DNA of 46,337 nt from IMG/VR virus record IMGVR_UViG_3300037223_000132, positions 1 through 46,337 of that record. One strand, given 5' to 3'. A program made the translations under genes and the position numbers. Under the pieces are notes generated by a model. It was not told the origin of the DNA and made no database searches. It saw only the letters and a list, made by a program, of their open reading frames with translations. Shown here piece by piece: positions 4,686 through 23,491 of this stretch. This DNA comes from a virus. Within the stretch, counting starts at the first letter, position 1, and every line of letters begins with the position of its first letter.

Positions 4686-6268
4686 GACCATCCTTTCGCC
4701 TCGGGCTGCTTGTCCTGACCCCACGAATGCCAGGCAAACGTGCCCGGCTTCGGCGCATCACTGGGCTTGTCACCATCCGGCTTGGTAATTTTATCGAGAC
4801 CCATGCCCAGCATCGCCAGCGCCGCAACCAAATCGTCATGCGCGCCCGGAAAGCTGAGCAGCTGCTTTTCGGCGTCCGCCCAGCGCGGCCAGTCGCTCGG
4901 CCAGTGCACCATGCCCATGGCCATCAACCCGCGTATGGAAACCGATCGCGCCACAAGGTCGCGCTTTTCGGCAATTGAATCGTCAATCCAAAAAAAACAT
5001 TTGGTGTCCAGCATCCGCTTGCGCAGCAACGGCAGAATGGAACCGCTGATGGCGTCGCGCGCGGCCCACCATTGCGCCGGCCGGCGCCGTTCGATAATGC
5101 GGAAAATCGCATCGCACAAAACGTCGGTCTCCATTTTTTCCCAGACGGTATCGGGCAAAATCCAGATCTCGCCGGTCGGATCCACGCCCACGATGAGCAG
5201 GCACGTGGAATCATTTTTCTCCTGGATTCGGTAAGCGTGGTCGCTCGCGACGTAGATCCGCAAATGCTTCGGCAGATCAGCCGCCAAGTAAGTTTTGAGC
5301 CACTTCTTTTTAAACCAGGTGCCCTCGGCTGGTGTCGGGTTGCACTGGTCCTGCGTATGAAAATCCGACCGCACGATGTCGGATTTGTGGTTGCGCTTGG
5401 CCAAGTAAAATTCCTGCGGAAACCGTTCCGGCCAGCAAACCGCATCCTTGGGGCGCCCCAACGGATCGCCGTCGCCCTCGCTCAGCGCCGGGATGCGAAT
5501 CCGCACAAAGCCGCAAGCGTAGCTGGCGTCGTAGTGCGGGTTGGTCGGGTCAAACAACCGGCCTTGGACGTCGTCCTCGTTTTTGCGGCTTCCGATAAGC
5601 AACTGCCACGCCTCGGCGGAGTTCATGCGTGACAAGCAATCCGCGATGTAACAACGCCACGCCGAATTGCGCTCGGCCTCGCTGTACGCCTCCTCGGCGC
5701 TTTTAAAAAAGTCATCGAAAATAATGCCGTGGCCGCCCACGCCGGCCGGAATCTGGCCACGCCCGAAAAATTGGATCTTCCCCCCGCCTTCGAGCTGAAG
5801 CCGCGAGGAGCTCTGGCTGTCCTCGCGCAGACGCGCGGCCGGAATCGCCCCAAAGGTCAGGGCGTAGCCGGGTCCGCGCAAATAGTCGCGCACATCGCGT
5901 CCGTGCTCATTGGCGAGCTCAGCGGTCGCGGTAATGATGAGCAGATCCCGTTGCGGCCAGTTGCCACAATGCCAGGGAACGAAGTTCCTGACGGCCATTT
6001 CCGTTTTGCCGTAGCGCGGAGCCGTCTCGATCTCGAGCTTGCGGATTTCCCCGCGTGCCAGGCGCATGAGGCTTTGGCCGATCAGCGCGTGGTGCGCCTT
6101 CCAGGAATACCGCGACTTGCTTACGTTCGCCGGATCAAGCGGGTCCGGCGTGTTCAGCTGAGCAAAAGCGAGCAAATCGAGCCGCGCCAAGCGCGCAGCC
6201 AGCAAGCGGGCCTGCAACTGGGCGGTGGTCAGTTGAGCAAGCAGCATGATGACGCAGAGAAAAATCAT
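4682..6268 (-). CDS. terL: Terminase large subunit (TerL)
   Basis: The 528-residue packaging motor ATPase and nuclease. Visible elements are a Walker A-like loop APRYGKT at 83-89, a Walker B GIIFDDF at 181-187, a coupling-type segment around LLIGSRKNEDD (223-233), and an RNase H-like nuclease domain with an acidic strand YVASDHAY (339-346) and a final acidic helix HDDLVAALAM (478-487). It should cut concatemeric DNA and drive it through the portal. The first ATG (6268) overlaps the small-subunit stop as ATGA; a second Met at residue 8 is an alternative. The N-terminus is unusually hydrophobic (MIFLCVIMLL), which would be consistent with the later start. The family call is secure. Confidence 0.93.
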   Translation of the reverse strand: MIFLCVIMLLAQLTTAQLQARLLAARLARLDLLAFAQLNTPDPLDPANVSKSRYSWKAHHALIGQSLMRLARGEIRKLEIETAPRYGKTEMAVRNFVPWHCGNWPQRDLLIITATAELANEHGRDVRDYLRGPGYALTFGAIPAARLREDSQSSSRLQLEGGGKIQFFGRGQIPAGVGGHGIIFDDFFKSAEEAYSEAERNSAWRCYIADCLSRMNSAEAWQLLIGSRKNEDDVQGRLFDPTNPHYDASYACGFVRIRIPALSEGDGDPLGRPKDAVCWPERFPQEFYLAKRNHKSDIVRSDFHTQDQCNPTPAEGTWFKKKWLKTYLAADLPKHLRIYVASDHAYRIQEKNDSTCLLIVGVDPTGEIWILPDTVWEKMETDVLCDAIFRIIERRRPAQWWAARDAISGSILPLLRKRMLDTKCFFWIDDSIAEKRDLVARSVSIRGLMAMGMVHWPSDWPRWADAEKQLLSFPGAHDDLVAALAMLGMGLDKITKPDGDKPSDAPKPGTFAWHSWGQDKQPEAKGWS

Positions 6269-6837
6269 TGCCGATGGAGCGAGTGTTGGATGGGAATGAC
6301 CGCGCAGGTAGGCAACGACTCGCCGCGCTTCACGAGCTCAGCCAGGAGGTCATCAACGTTCGCGTTGGTGGTCTCGATCGGGCCGCCGCCTGGTCCCGCG
6401 TGCTCGAGGCGTTGCACGTCGCGCCACTTTTCCCGCTGACGGTTTTTCAGCCAAAAAATTGCGGCCGTCGTGTCCGGCGGATAATGCTTCACCACTCGGG
6501 TTTTCTCGATTTTGCCGCCGCACACATTGATCACCACGTCCGGATGGCTGTAGCCCGTGGCGCGCTTGAAGAGCCGGTCGGACACCTGCGCGTCGGCCTC
6601 GTCCTTGCCGCTTTTTAAGGCGCGACAAAACTCCGGGTGGTCGTGCTGCCAGCGCAAAATCGTGCGTTCATCGACGGCAAAAAAGCGGGCCAGATCGGTG
6701 TTGGTGGCGCCGAGTAGAGAGTAACGATACGCCAGCGCGCACTTGGAGCGCGTGTAAACCGTCGGCCGTCCGGTCTTGATGTGTGGCTTGGCTTTGTTCA
6801 CAACTCGATCATTGGCAGCATTACGAAAAAAGTTCAA
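6265..6837 (-). CDS. terS: Terminase small subunit (TerS)
   Basis: A 190-residue DNA-recognition subunit of the packaging machine. A helix-turn-helix is visible at about 43-66 (GATNTDLARFFAVDERTILRW), followed by HPEFCRALKSGKDEAD and the segment YPPDTTAAIFWLKNRQREKW, which is typical of one widespread family of phage small terminases. The C-terminus is variable and probably contacts TerL. It lies directly upstream of TerL with an ATGA overlap, and itself starts in an ATGA overlap with a small HTH protein. It should bind the pac or cos region of the phage DNA, which cannot be located from sequence alone. Confidence 0.88.
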   Translation of the reverse strand: MNFFRNAANDRVVNKAKPHIKTGRPTVYTRSKCALAYRYSLLGATNTDLARFFAVDERTILRWQHDHPEFCRALKSGKDEADAQVSDRLFKRATGYSHPDVVINVCGGKIEKTRVVKHYPPDTTAAIFWLKNRQREKWRDVQRLEHAGPGGGPIETTNANVDDLLAELVKRGESLPTCAVIPIQHSLHRQ

Positions 6838-7816: not shown

Positions 7817-8107
7817 TCAGCCAGCCATTTTCGCTTTTCTTGCGGGCTTTACGATAGCGCAGCAACAAGCACAGAGCAGGACGGGCCGCGTGAACGCAAA
7901 CCCAACGTCAAGCTCTGTATTACGAAAGCCAACACCATTACTCGCGATCGGCAAACGCAGCCGATCGCGCATGAAGTCCAGGTCGCGATAAATGGTTTTT
8001 GATGACACCTCTAATTCGTCGGCAAGCATTTGCGCCGTAACGCGGCGTGGACCGGACAGCCGCGCGGAAATTTTTTGGAGACGTTCAATGGTGCTGTGGG
8101 CATTCAT
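7817..8107 (-). CDS. DeoR-type HTH regulator without effector domain
   Basis: A 96-residue protein whose first 60 residues (IERLQKISARLSG, VTAQMLADELEVSSKTIYRDLDFMRDRL) are a clear HTH_11/DeoR-like winged helix, the kind that heads WYL-domain regulators. The WYL effector domain is missing. The tail instead carries a Cys cluster (LLCACCC) and a basic end (VKPARKAKMAG). The short form may act as a dominant DNA-binding repressor or a small phage regulator. It lies between a zinc-finger protein and the replication initiator on the same strand. Confidence 0.7.
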   Translation of the reverse strand: MNAHSTIERLQKISARLSGPRRVTAQMLADELEVSSKTIYRDLDFMRDRLRLPIASNGVGFRNTELDVGFAFTRPVLLCACCCAIVKPARKAKMAG

Positions 8108-13141: not shown

Positions 13142-13325
13142 AGGTGTGTATCTTGGTGGTGGTGGTAAAAATGATGGGCAGGCACGGCAGCAGGCACAGG
13201 TACCAGGTGGTCACCAGCCGCCGGCGCAGCCGGTACGCGGTGCTTTTGTCGCCGCGAATCGCCGGCTCGGTCTTCCAGTACAGGCCGATCCAAAAATCTT
13301 GCGGCACAAAGCGGATGGTGATCAT
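13119..13325 (-). CDS. Small membrane protein
   Basis: A 68-residue basic protein with one strong hydrophobic segment, TTWYLCLLPCLPIIFTTTT (about 39-57), preceded by positive charges (AYRLRRRLV) and followed by a short Lys/Asp-rich tail. This topology suggests a single-pass membrane protein with the N-terminus inside. It is co-transcribed with early regulators, so it could modify the host envelope or energy state early in infection. It starts in an ATGA overlap with the winged-helix gene and overlaps the next gene by 23 bp. Confidence 0.6.
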   Translation of the reverse strand: MITIRFVPQDFWIGLYWKTEPAIRGDKSTAYRLRRRLVTTWYLCLLPCLPIIFTTTTKIHTYDPKTKN

Positions 13326-13597
13326 ACGGATTTACCCGCGCCGTTCGTGGTCCACACAATCGCCGAGTGCCCGGACGCATTCTTGCGCCGCTGCCCGCTA
13401 TCCCAGATCCGCATCTTGCCGGCCAGCTCCGATACACGCGGGCGCACGGAGAGCACCGACTTGCGCAGCGTCGACGCGATTTCATCGGCCGTGTAATCCG
13501 CCGCCTGCAACAGCTTCAGACATTGCTCGCGCAGGAGCGCCGCGTCTGCCGTGGTCGGCTGAGCCGCGGCGCTCGTGTCGTGATGGAGAGAAATCAT
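13322..13597 (-). CDS. Winged-helix DNA-binding protein
   Basis: A 91-residue protein with a winged helix: LREQCLKLLQAADYTADEIA, STLRKSVLSVRPRVSELAGK and the wing MRIWDSGQRRKNASGHSAIV. The sVRPRiSEL plus dSGqrRkn-sG pattern is common in small phage proteins encoded near replication genes. It probably binds DNA as a regulator or replication accessory. A copy of the 9-bp operator TGTGTATCC (13647-13655) lies about 50 bp upstream of its start, suggesting shared control with the immunity region. Confidence 0.75.
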   Translation of the reverse strand: MISLHHDTSAAAQPTTADAALLREQCLKLLQAADYTADEIASTLRKSVLSVRPRVSELAGKMRIWDSGQRRKNASGHSAIVWTTNGAGKSV

Positions 13598-13611: not shown

Positions 13612-13655
13612 GGCACCGGTCGGGTGCCTTCGAATTGTTGGTTTACTGTGTATCC
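13612..13655. promoter_or_regulatory. Intergenic hairpin and operator copy E
   Basis: The 63-bp gap upstream of the winged-helix gene holds an inverted repeat GGCACC-N5-GGTGCC (13612-13628) and one exact copy of the 9-mer TGTGTATCC (13647-13655) that is repeated in the immunity region. The hairpin has no T-run on either strand, so it is not a convincing terminator. The operator copy suggests that the regulator binding at 14088-14225 also acts here. Confidence 0.5.
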
Positions 13656-13660
13656 GGTCG

Positions 13661-13867
13661 CTACACTTTGCGCGGCAGCACGGCCTTCCCCATCACGTAC
13701 TCGCGCACTTGATCGACGTTGAAAAACACCAGCCGGCCCATGCGCACAAAGGGAATCTTGCGCTCCGCCACCTGGCCGCGCAGCCAGCGCAAGCTCGGCC
13801 GCGACGCCTCCGGCCAAAGCGCGTCCAGCAGTCCCTGCGCGTCCACGAGTTGTGAGGTGTCGCCCAT
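13661..13867 (-). CDS. Excisionase-like MerR-type HTH protein
   Basis: A 68-residue protein starting at the ATG at 13867. The pattern QGLLDALWPEASRPSLRWLR, GQVAERKIPFVRMGRLVFFN, VDQVREYV is the classic small winged helix of the Xis/HTH_17 superfamily: a helix-turn-helix with a strand pair ending in R-x-G-R-LVFF and a last helix. It may be the excisionase that directs prophage excision, although it lies 8 kb from the integrase and in the opposite transcription unit. A DNA-binding role in replication is an alternative. The longer start upstream uses a weak codon inside the previous gene. Confidence 0.65.
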   Translation of the reverse strand: MGDTSQLVDAQGLLDALWPEASRPSLRWLRGQVAERKIPFVRMGRLVFFNVDQVREYVMGKAVLPRKV

Positions 13868-13868
13868 A

Positions 13869-14087
13869 TCAGGCCGGGTTGACTTGCTCAAATCGGAAGA
13901 CCATGCCCGCCTTGGCGTCCGCGCCGTGGAGAGCCACGCAGGTTTCCAGGAAGTGCGCCTGCGTCATGTTTTTCCGGCGCGCGGAAATGCGGATCACGCG
14001 CTCGATCTCGGGGCGGATGCGCATGAACATGCCCTTGCGTTTCTTGCGGGGCCGCTCGCGCGGGAATTTGATTTCACTCATAGGCAT
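13869..14087 (-). CDS. Ribbon-helix-helix regulator (leftward)
   Basis: A 72-residue basic protein with a Lys/Arg-rich arm (PRERPRKKRKGMF) then MRIRPEIERVIRISARRKNM and TQAHFLETCVALHG. A beta strand with alternating basic residues followed by two helices is the Arc/MetJ-like ribbon-helix-helix layout, which binds DNA as dimers. It is the first gene of the leftward early operon, and the exact 9-mer TGTGTATCC starts one base upstream of its ATG. It could be a Cro- or Arc-like repressor of the opposing gene and of itself. An in-frame ATG at 14081 is an alternative start. Confidence 0.65.
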   Translation of the reverse strand: MPMSEIKFPRERPRKKRKGMFMRIRPEIERVIRISARRKNMTQAHFLETCVALHGADAKAGMVFRFEQVNPA

Positions 14088-14112
14088 TGTGTATCCAAGT
14101 GATAGCCGAGTG

Positions 14113-14141
14113 TGTATCCACTTGATTTACATTTCAATCAA
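14113..14141 (-). promoter_or_regulatory. Predicted leftward sigma70 promoter
   Basis: On the minus strand a -35 TTGATT (14141-14136), a 17-bp spacer and a -10 GATACA (14118-14113) drive the leftward early operon, with an expected start near 14106. Operator B covers the -10 and operator A lies in the short leader, so binding at either would block transcription or translation of the first gene. An A-rich tract lies just upstream. Confidence 0.5.
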
Positions 14142-14148
14142 AAAAAAC

Positions 14149-14177
14149 TTGCTGTATATCCACCCGTGCGTTATAAA
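14149..14177 (+). promoter_or_regulatory. Predicted rightward promoter 1
   Basis: TTGCTG (14149-14154), a 17-bp spacer and TATAAA (14172-14177) point towards the rightward module, giving a leader of about 60 bases before the ATG at 14247. Operator C (14153-14161) overlaps the -35 end and the spacer. Confidence 0.45.
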
Positions 14178-14210
14178 TCGGGAAATCCGGTGCGAAGTGA
14201 AAAAAAATAG

Positions 14211-14238
14211 TTGACTGGATATACACTTGATTTAATAT
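14211..14238 (+). promoter_or_regulatory. Predicted rightward promoter 2
   Basis: TTGACT (14211-14216), a 16-bp spacer and TAATAT (14233-14238), with an A-tract (14200-14208) just upstream that could act as an UP element. Operator D lies in the spacer. Transcription would start about 2-3 bases before the ATG at 14247, so the message would be almost leaderless. Confidence 0.45.
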
Positions 14239-14246
14239 CGCGAGAA

Positions 14247-14504
14247 ATGGGTGTCACCCGACAAAAGCAAATGCGTTTGAGCGACGAGGGTCGTTTCCTC
14301 CTCAACGCCTGCAAGCAGGCCACCGGCTATAATGACACGAAGGTCACGGAGATCTGCTACGCCCTGTATGCCCTCAAGCTCCGCCGCGAAGTCCAGCGCG
14401 CCCACGAGTTCCTGTACACCAACCTGGTGCAGATGACCACCGAGACCGTCCGTTGCTCGCACTGCGGCCACGACGTCAGCACCGCCCCGGCAAAATCCGC
14501 ATGA
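14247..14504 (+). CDS. Ribbon-helix-helix-like regulator with zinc ribbon (rightward)
   Basis: An 85-residue protein. RQKQMRLSDEGRFLLNACKQ, ATGYNDTKVTEICYALYALK reads as a beta strand and two helices of a ribbon-helix-helix fold. The C-terminus adds a metal-binding-like knuckle CSHCGH. It is transcribed divergently from the RHH gene at 13869-14087 across the repeated operators, so the two probably form the lysis-lysogeny switch; which one is the maintenance repressor cannot be told. The start at 14247 is preferred because an upstream TTG (14211) lies within the promoter; an in-frame ATG at 14271 is another option. Confidence 0.65.
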   Translation: MGVTRQKQMRLSDEGRFLLNACKQATGYNDTKVTEICYALYALKLRREVQRAHEFLYTNLVQMTTETVRCSHCGHDVSTAPAKSA

Positions 14505-14797
14505 CCTCATATTTTTACATCGTCGGGGGGGGGGGGGGCACAAAACCTGCTAACAGTTCTGCCGCGCTAACTGCCAGTTACTCGCTCGTCCCCTCGCTTT
14601 CCGCTCTTCCGTTTCCGTTTTACGATTCCTTTGCCGTCCCAATTTCGGCAGCACCCGCGCGTCCGGTGAATGTCACCCGCACCCGGACGCAGCCTGCCCT
14701 GTGCCGTCCGGCGCTTTACCACTTGCCGCCGGACGGCACTAAATCTCGACCCTTGGCCCACGATTTTGGACAAAATCATGAATCACTACATCCTTGA
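14501..14797 (+). CDS. Doubtful 98-aa reading frame containing a G14 tract
   Basis: The frame starts in an ATGA overlap with the regulator and runs MTSYFYIVGGGGGTKP, then a Ser/Ala/Pro-rich stretch, to a stop at 14799. The tract of 14 G at 14525-14538 encodes five Gly. One G fewer leads to a stop after ten further codons and one more to a stop after four, so length changes would switch it off. Low sequence complexity and two strong hairpins in the second half make it possible that this region is a structured leader instead. It overlaps the next gene by 20 bp. Confidence 0.3.
   Translation: MTSYFYIVGGGGGTKPANSSAALTASYSLVPSLSALPFPFYDSFAVPISAAPARPVNVTRTRTQPALCRPALYHLPPDGTKSRPLAHDFGQNHESLHP
14525..14538 (+). 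repeat. Homopolymer tract of 14 G
   Basis: Fourteen consecutive G residues, 24 bases after an ATG that is coupled to the upstream regulator. This is the longest homopolymer I see in the window and is of the type that varies by slipped-strand mispairing. It may also be miscounted by the sequencing method. Confidence 0.85.
14659..14739 (+). ncRNA. Two GC-rich hairpins with a shared GTCCGG core
   Basis: An 8-bp inverted repeat, GCGTCCGG (14659-14666) with its complement at 14683-14690, is followed by a perfect 13-bp one, GTGCCGTCCGGCG (14701-14713) with its complement at 14727-14739 and a 13-base loop. Both stems share GTCCGG/CCGGAC, so the arms could also pair across hairpins and form alternative structures. 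No T-run follows, so simple intrinsic termination is unlikely. It ends 38 bases before the next clear start codon (14778). An attenuator or structured leader RNA is a possibility. Confidence 0.4.
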
Positions 14798-16652: not shown

Positions 16653-16659
16653 AACAATT

Positions 16660-16731
16660 ACCCCTTTGGTGTAACGGTCGCACGACACCTTGTGCAGGTG
16701 CGAGGTCTCGGTTCAATTCCGGGGGGGGGTG
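16660..16731 (+). tRNA. tRNA-His (GTG)-like
   Basis: A full cloverleaf can be drawn: acceptor ACCCCTT/GGGGGGT (7 bp with two U-G pairs), D stem GTGT/GCAC with a 7-base loop, anticodon stem ACACC/GGTGC (outermost pair mismatched) with loop TTGTGCA and anticodon GTG at 16692-16694, five-base variable loop, and T arm CTCGG-TTCAATT-CCGGG. The next bases are GCCC in place of a discriminator plus CCA. A bona fide tRNA-His needs G-1 and C73, which are not evident, so identity by anticodon only. It shares its plan with the next gene. Confidence 0.7.
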
Positions 16732-16740
16732 CCCGCGATT

Positions 16741-16815
16741 TGCCCCTTGGTGCAACGGCAGCACGACAGCTCGCAAAGCTGAGAGATCCCCGTTCGAATC
16801 GGGGGGGGGCAGCCA
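16741..16815 (+). tRNA. tRNA-like gene, anticodon position GCA (Cys), C33
   Basis: Cloverleaf: acceptor TGCCCCT/GGGGGCA, D stem GTGC/GCAC, anticodon stem ACAGC/GCTGA with an A-A mismatch, loop TCGCAAA, variable GAGAT, T arm CCCCG-TTCGAAT-CGGGG, discriminator G and encoded CCA. The anticodon by position is GCA (16773-16775), but residue 33 is C instead of the near-universal T. The U1-A72 pair and G73 are tRNA-Gln-like identity features, not Cys-like. It may be a remodelled or non-decoding tRNA. Adjacent to and clearly similar to the preceding gene. Confidence 0.6.
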
Positions 16816-22246: not shown

Positions 22247-23491
22247 ATGAAGATTGACGCAAACGAAACCATCCAAGTGAAGCGCAGCGGGGTCACTGCC
22301 TTGATCCGTCCCACACAAAAGGCTGATAAAACCTACTGGGTTGTTGATTATCGCGCCAACGGCAAGCGCAAGCTCGTGTGGCGTTCGACCGAAGAGGAGG
22401 CCAGATCGGCAGCCAGCGAAGCCTTGGACAAGATCTCCAAGGGCGAGTCCGCTGCCCTCGAACTCACCACCAGCGACCGCCAATTCTATCTTCGCGCGAT
22501 AGAAGCGCTGGCAGGCACAGGCAAGCATTTGGACGTGGCGGCCATGGAATACGCCGAGTGCCTGCGTGTCATGGGCGGCAAGGTGACGGTGCTGGAAGCA
22601 TGCCGCGAATGGATGAAGCGCAACGCGTCCATCGTCGCGACGATCAACGTTGCCGACGCCGCGGCAAAACTCCTGACGCAGATGGTTGCCGACGGCAAAA
22701 GCGTCTGGCGCATCAAGGCGATTTCCGCCGGCCTCAAGGCCATGGCTGAGCACTTTAACGGGCAGCCAGTCACCGACATCACGCCGGCGCAGATTTCCAG
22801 CTACCTGACCGGGCTCGACTTCGTAGCGCGCACCAAGAAAAATCACCGTGACGTCATCGGCTATTTCAACCGCTGGCTCTGCCTCCACAAATACCTGCCC
22901 AAAGACACTGACTGGCTCTACGGCGTCCAGGATTACGCCAAGGCGAAGGTCGGCGAAACCGCGATCTATACCCCTGACGAAATGCAGGCCATCCTAAAAG
23001 TCTGCAACGAGGACGAACTGGCCGCCATCGCCATCGGCGGTTTCACCGCCATGCGCCATTCTGAAATCTGCCGCCTCCAGTGGGAAAACATCCAACTCTC
23101 CGACAAGCCTGGCGAAAGTTGGATCGAGGTACTCGGCGGAAAAAACGAGCGTCATGGCCAACTGCGCCGCCTGGTGCCGGTCAGCGACAATCTGCGCGCC
23201 TGGCTGCGGACGTGCGTAAAACCGGCCGGCCCGGTCACCAAACTCGATTACGAGCAATCCACGAAACACTTGCCGCACCTGGTTGGCCGCGCGAAGGTCG
23301 CCTTCAAGCGCAACGCCTTCCGTCACTCCGGCATTTCCTACCGAGTGGCTCAGACCGGCGACGTCGCCCGAATCGCCGAGGAGTCCGGCAATTCCGTGGC
23401 CGTCATCCGCATGAACTACCTGCGCGTGGTCAAGCCCGATGAGGCGGCAAAATGGTTCAACGTTTACCCAGCCGATAAATCCACCCCATGA
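22247..23491 (+). CDS. int: Tyrosine-recombinase integrase
   Basis: A 414-residue protein that should integrate and excise the phage at the adjacent tRNA-Pro-type attP. Residues 1-70 look like an arm-binding beta domain (TYWVVDYRANGKRKLVWRST), 110-225 like the core-binding helices, and 240-400 like the catalytic domain. Seen are R270 in TAMRHSEICRL, K299 in LGGKNERHG, R359 in NAFRHSGISY and the Tyr nucleophile Y391 in RMNYLRVV. The usual His of HxxR is Asn356 and the next His/Trp position is Asn382 (GNSVAV). Such N-substituted forms are familiar from PVC-group integrases, so it is probably active. Its stop overlaps the next gene (ATGA). Confidence 0.88.
   Translation: MKIDANETIQVKRSGVTALIRPTQKADKTYWVVDYRANGKRKLVWRSTEEEARSAASEALDKISKGESAALELTTSDRQFYLRAIEALAGTGKHLDVAAMEYAECLRVMGGKVTVLEACREWMKRNASIVATINVADAAAKLLTQMVADGKSVWRIKAISAGLKAMAEHFNGQPVTDITPAQISSYLTGLDFVARTKKNHRDVIGYFNRWLCLHKYLPKDTDWLYGVQDYAKAKVGETAIYTPDEMQAILKVCNEDELAAIAIGGFTAMRHSEICRLQWENIQLSDKPGESWIEVLGGKNERHGQLRRLVPVSDNLRAWLRTCVKPAGPVTKLDYEQSTKHLPHLVGRAKVAFKRNAFRHSGISYRVAQTGDVARIAEESGNSVAVIRMNYLRVVKPDEAAKWFNVYPADKSTP

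Follow-up and report, generated by a model that had tools for sequence, protein, structure and literature searches.

Two small divergent genes, predicted to encode ribbon-helix-helix (RHH) regulators that replace CI and Cro, probably form the lysis-lysogeny immunity control of a temperate tailed phage. The stretch of DNA that was analyzed, 46,337 nucleotides in length and here called the window, corresponds to an entire virus record (IMGVR_UViG_3300037223_000132). A terminase large subunit, a major head protein, a tyrosine integrase and RecT were all matched in it. The divergent pair, RHH1 and RHH2, is flanked by the tyrosine integrase on the RHH2 side and by a leftward early operon on the RHH1 side, which is where a lambda-like phage carries CI and Cro. 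Both open reading frames were found as described in a first-pass annotation of the same DNA. The genes on which the argument rests are:

13869..14087, minus strand: RHH1, predicted ribbon-helix-helix regulator of 72 aa, heading the leftward early operon, in a Cro-like position
14247..14504, plus strand: RHH2, RHH-like protein of 85 aa that has a CxxC at the C-terminal end and heads the rightward unit, in a CI-like position
13661..13867, minus strand: excisionase-like (xis-like) HTH gene, second in the early operon (phrog_1840 excisionase, E 0.003; TIGR01764, E 7e-4)
13322..13597, minus strand: winged-helix-like gene, downstream of repeated site 5 (phrog_1123, E 1.7e-12)
22247..23491, plus strand: tyrosine integrase, on the RHH2 side (PF00589, above cut-off)

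RHH1 and the xis-like HTH gene open the leftward early operon; further along come the winged-helix gene, a gene with a DnaJ domain and RecT, and the terminase lies downstream of these. Gene order was the same in the closest relative (IMGVR_UViG_3300035696_001544, hereafter L001), whose ortholog of the xis-like gene matched the phrog_1840 excisionase family at E 6.6e-5. A small HTH_11/DeoR-like gene at 7817-8107, within the early operon, is possibly a second regulator. The rightward side is opened by RHH2, whose frame is contained in a longer open reading frame that starts with TTG at 14211, and contains two tRNA genes as well as the integrase. The tRNA pair is His + Cys in the window (16659-16815) and His + Lys at the equivalent place in L001 (3985-4141). 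A run of 14 G was observed at 14525-14538, 20 nt past the RHH2 stop codon, and a 10-G run on the coding strand at the equivalent position of L001 (5594-5603); G/C runs of at least eight were otherwise confined there to the tRNA genes (9-10 long) and a single G10 (L001 5485-5494). RNA folding of the G run after RHH2 showed nothing unusual. Scans of genome contigs with RecT and with the integrase gave no match and hence no candidate host.

The degenerate 9-mer TGTRTATCC had exactly five matches in the window, all inside 13647-14225. As the first-pass annotation had reported, four of these exact copies lie between the divergent genes and one lies upstream of the winged-helix gene. The sites and the promoters predicted around them are:

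14088..14096, plus strand: site 1, TGTGTATCC, immediately upstream of the RHH1 start
14111..14119, plus strand: site 2, TGTGTATCC, over GATACA, which is the -10 of the predicted leftward promoter
14153..14161, plus strand: site 3, TGTATATCC, in the -35/spacer of predicted rightward promoter 1
14217..14225, minus strand: site 4, TGTATATCC, in the spacer of predicted rightward promoter 2
13647..13655, plus strand: site 5, TGTGTATCC, with the winged-helix gene 50 bp downstream
14113..14141, minus strand: predicted leftward promoter, TTGATT-17-GATACA, 7/12 consensus
14149..14177, plus strand: predicted rightward promoter 1, TTGCTG-17-TATAAA, 8/12 consensus
14211..14238, plus strand: predicted rightward promoter 2, TTGACT-16-TAATAT, 9/12 consensus

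Shuffles of the whole window contained a mean of 0.2 TGTRTATCC copies, and none of 100 reached five. When only the divergent region was shuffled, four copies were reached in none of 200 trials. When every 9-mer carrying a single degenerate position was scanned blindly, TGTRTATCC alone reached five copies within 600 bp. Two tandem sites, spaced 23 bp, lengthen to the near-identical 16-mers TGTGTATCCAAGTGAT and TGTGTATCCACTTGAT. The three sites toward the early operon have the form TGTGTATCC and the two at the rightward promoters the form TGTATATCC, a split that could reflect different affinities and that five sites are too few to demonstrate. A further 8-of-9 match at 13145-13153, which the first-pass annotation had listed beside the exact copies, was dropped, as nine matches with at most one mismatch were found against 6.8 expected, which is chance level. 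An apparent terminator at 14107-14124 was also rejected, at background level.

All three promoters are weak consensus matches and are to be read as predictions; the threshold of the promoter scan was passed by TTGACT-16-TAATAT only, with 0.7 such hits expected by chance. Placed hexamer by hexamer on these predicted promoters, the sites overlapped the leftward -10 and the two rightward spacers, in agreement with the earlier description. Site 3 begins within the -35 of predicted rightward promoter 1 and continues into its spacer, and site 4 adjoins the -35 of predicted rightward promoter 2 and falls within its spacer. At site 5, no convincing promoter was found. The -10 of predicted rightward promoter 2 sits 8 nt ahead of the RHH2 ATG, and RHH2 mRNA from this promoter may be leaderless.

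The orthologs of RHH1 (L001:6018-6236, 29% identity) and RHH2 (L001:5632-5910, 33% identity) were the two most diverged window/L001 pairs. Other conserved genes showed 38-79% identity, with values of 71% for the integrase, 57% for the xis-like protein and 79% for the winged-helix protein. In the relatives, where the first-pass annotation had proposed a motif search, the 9-mer was absent from L001, and the divergent pairs of two further relatives (L021 and L022, below) were found to have repeats of their own. L001 has ATAGRCTSAKATATATG twice, a count reached by 22 of 100 shuffles and not significant alone; in the 20-kb L001 locus, GATATAT occurred only at both of these places. A diverged pair combined with a missing 9-mer is the pattern expected if a repressor and its operator were to diverge together. 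RHH1 and RHH2 found no relatives when viral contigs and phage records were searched with them directly, nor did a search of phage records with the xis-like protein yield a relative. The control region of three relatives recognized by RecT only (L002-L004) was not common to the window.

Further phages were found through terminase searches. Together with the window and L001, three of these (IMGVR 3300048834_000330, L020; 3300025872_000108, L021; 3300031251_000962, L022) made up a comparison set of five phages with an integrase. L021 and L022 are TerL relatives at 47-50% identity, more distant than L001, and in each of them two small divergent genes fill the space from integrase to early operon. 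The L021 proteins clearly matched RHH_1 (E 1e-3 and 1.4e-3, one of them above the Pfam cut-off in one scan) as well as phage repressor, CopG-like and Arc-like PHROG families, by which this pair is predicted to belong to the RHH proteins. Matches of the L022 pair were weaker and under curated cut-offs (RHH_5, E 0.002; CcdA, E 0.03). Between the divergent genes of L021, TGWCACC is present four times (0/200 shuffles), with one more copy in 20 kb; the repeats of this pair, too, fall in predicted promoters. In L022, GTGTAANANTTGTGTA occurs exactly twice in 20 kb, each copy almost entirely inside the 18-bp spacer of a divergent predicted promoter with TTGACA or TTGACG (TTGACR) as -35. Divergent genes for predicted regulators, with common repeated sites between them, were accordingly seen in the window, L021 and L022. 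At the place of the divergent pair, L020 has an ordinary XRE repressor. It was the only one of the five phages with an HTH_3 match; HTH_3 was absent from the window record and the other three pair-carrying phages, and S24 from all five.

In the window (14233-14249), L021 (4301-4340) and L022 (3318-3359), a divergent regulator gene begins approximately 6-8 nt after the end of the predicted -10. Because of this short distance, the mRNAs concerned may be leaderless. In L022, a 490-aa open reading frame with a long run of ARDARDAI-type repeats (4868-6340) adjoins the control region.

The fold of RHH1 and RHH2 was approached by profile and structure comparisons. Neither protein matched a curated RHH family in PHROG, Pfam or NCBIfam, and PDB sequences searched with profiles of the RHH1 pair and the RHH2 pair gave no credible match. 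As NikR and CopG, both known RHH families, detect each other only at E about 0.5, such absent matches are weak evidence against an RHH fold. A profile of the RHH1 orthologous pair scored 21.1 in hhalign against an RHH profile, compared with 17.1 for the best of 100 column shuffles. For RHH2, the same comparison was not significant, with 11/100 shuffles reaching its score. When 2629 open reading frames were ranked with an HMM of known RHH chains only, five of the eight candidate proteins were in the top eight, including RHH2 of the window at rank 7 (E 0.49) and the L001 RHH1 ortholog at rank 8. A small HMM, built from the L021 and L022 proteins plus known RHH chains, placed the latter ortholog as the best non-training frame of the 2629, and with a larger RHH HMM it fell to rank 13. 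Single-sequence HMM scores gave no support for window RHH1 alone.

Structure prediction, which the first-pass annotation had suggested as a check, yielded single-sequence AlphaFold2 models of low confidence with helices at 26-36 and 43-54 in RHH1 and at 13-26 and 31-42 in RHH2. This layout would fit an RHH fold, in models too poor to show one. Structural alignment of these low-confidence models (VIA-align) was uninformative: no chain was matched by RHH1, and RHH2 matched two unrelated chains weakly. Of the earlier assignment of both proteins to the RHH class, the half that concerns RHH1 has moderate profile support, in part via its L001 ortholog, and an RHH fold is taken as probable for this protein. 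RHH2, with its non-significant hhalign score, is better described as RHH-like, its RHH fold being plausible and weakly supported.

From the arrangement of genes, sites and predicted promoters, we infer that RHH1 and RHH2 bind DNA and act as opposing regulators. RHH2, on the integrase side, would be the lysogenic repressor. Bound at the leftward -10 and close to the RHH1 start, where TGTGTATCC sites lie, it would shut off the early operon, including the xis-like gene, RecT and the terminase, and it would tune its own two promoters via the TGTATATCC sites. RHH1, as the first gene of the early operon, would act in a Cro-like manner, binding the same sites, turning the rightward promoters off and favoring lytic growth. 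The original suggestion of a compact switch of an uncommon type is supported in part, by the divergent small regulators at the immunity position, the non-random sites at predicted promoters, the similar layout in three relatives with sites of their own and the lack of HTH_3 and S24 matches in the window; support for its RHH component is moderate for RHH1 and weak for RHH2.

An alternative is that the pair is a secondary module, like the Arc/Mnt-encoding immI region of P22, and that some other, unrecognized protein is the main repressor. We consider this unlikely. The two-repressor RHH region of P22 can indeed be secondary to a CI-type switch (PMC2629481), and the window does contain the HTH_11/DeoR-like gene (7817-8107), the xis-like HTH gene and the winged-helix gene. 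However, these remaining HTH genes are inside the early operon, the four pair-carrying phages gave no match to HTH_3 or S24, and the pair occupies the interval from integrase to early operon in which L020 has its XRE repressor; P22 immI, by contrast, is a moron in the late region (PMC2629481). The sites might also be read by the xis-like HTH protein or the winged-helix protein, leaving the divergent pair with another role, which seems quite improbable. Short repeated sites are also bound by xis proteins and the winged-helix gene has site 5 in front of it, yet L001, which lacks the 9-mer, has these two proteins at 57% and 79% identity, which makes the winged-helix protein in particular an unlikely reader. 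Moreover, L021 and L022, in which homologs of these two proteins were not found, nevertheless have repeats between their divergent genes.

Least probable of all, and in our view very improbable, is a maintenance module in which antitoxin-like or plasmid-partition RHH proteins act on operators or iterons. RHH is a usual fold of such regulators, and the weak matches include RelB, CcdA and HicB-like families, but no toxin-like partner was recognized next to either gene. A ParA-type ATPase (AAA_31), the one partition type covered by the scan, was found in 0/5 phages, integrases are present in these phages, and two divergent RHH genes in four phages are unlike a toxin-antitoxin or ParA-ParG operon. 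Immunity control by a divergent RHH pair is retained as the preferred reading.

Most understanding of lysis-lysogeny control is based on HTH repressors. In a poorly known group of temperate phages, an RHH/RHH pair appears to stand in place of CI/Cro, with its layout kept in relatives that have different sites. If true, an RHH/RHH switch in four related phages with differing operators would be a very small model of the evolution of immunity specificity, and would offer a sequence signature by which lysogeny modules could be located in phages that yield nothing to a CI search. A wider interpretation, for and against which we regard the case as evenly balanced, is that a temperate-phage lineage has replaced CI/Cro by an RHH pair as its only immunity switch, with exchange against XRE-type modules at one locus and with co-diverging repressors and operators giving rise to many immunity types.

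A limited search of the open-access literature turned up no tailed phage whose main switch is described as an RHH/RHH pair. The window resembles the CI/Cro system of lambda in its divergent regulators with common, here putative, operators, its integrase on one side and its early operon containing a xis-like gene on the other. It differs from lambda in that the proteins are predicted to be RHH(-like) instead of HTH and lack an S24 domain for RecA-stimulated cleavage. Arc and Mnt of P22 are both RHH proteins, and their genes are divergent with operators between them. The immunity I region that carries these two repressor genes, mnt and arc, controls an antirepressor and is a moron in the late region, additional to the main prophage repressor (PMC2629481). 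The first-pass annotation, which called the window pair comparable to Arc/Mnt in idea only, understated this likeness, since a single immunity region of temperate phage P22 also carries two repressor genes (PMC2629481), as the window, with its small RHH(-like) pair, is predicted to do. The window pair differs in its position between integrase and early operon and in that no CI-type repressor was found; no antirepressor (ant) gene was recognized among the neighbors scanned against profile families. F55 of SSV1, a small RHH protein, binds tandem repeats located in the early promoters and in its own promoter and so maintains the virus in the carrier state (PMC9608457, PMC5569661), which is akin to the role proposed for the predicted small RHH regulators of the window and their repeated sites. 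F55 is, however, a single RHH protein of an archaeal spindle-shaped virus, for which no divergent RHH partner is described there, whereas the present pair consists of two predicted RHH-type proteins and belongs to tailed phages, whose predicted promoters are of bacterial type. P22 Arc/Mnt and SSV1 F55 are known precedents for RHH-based viral control.
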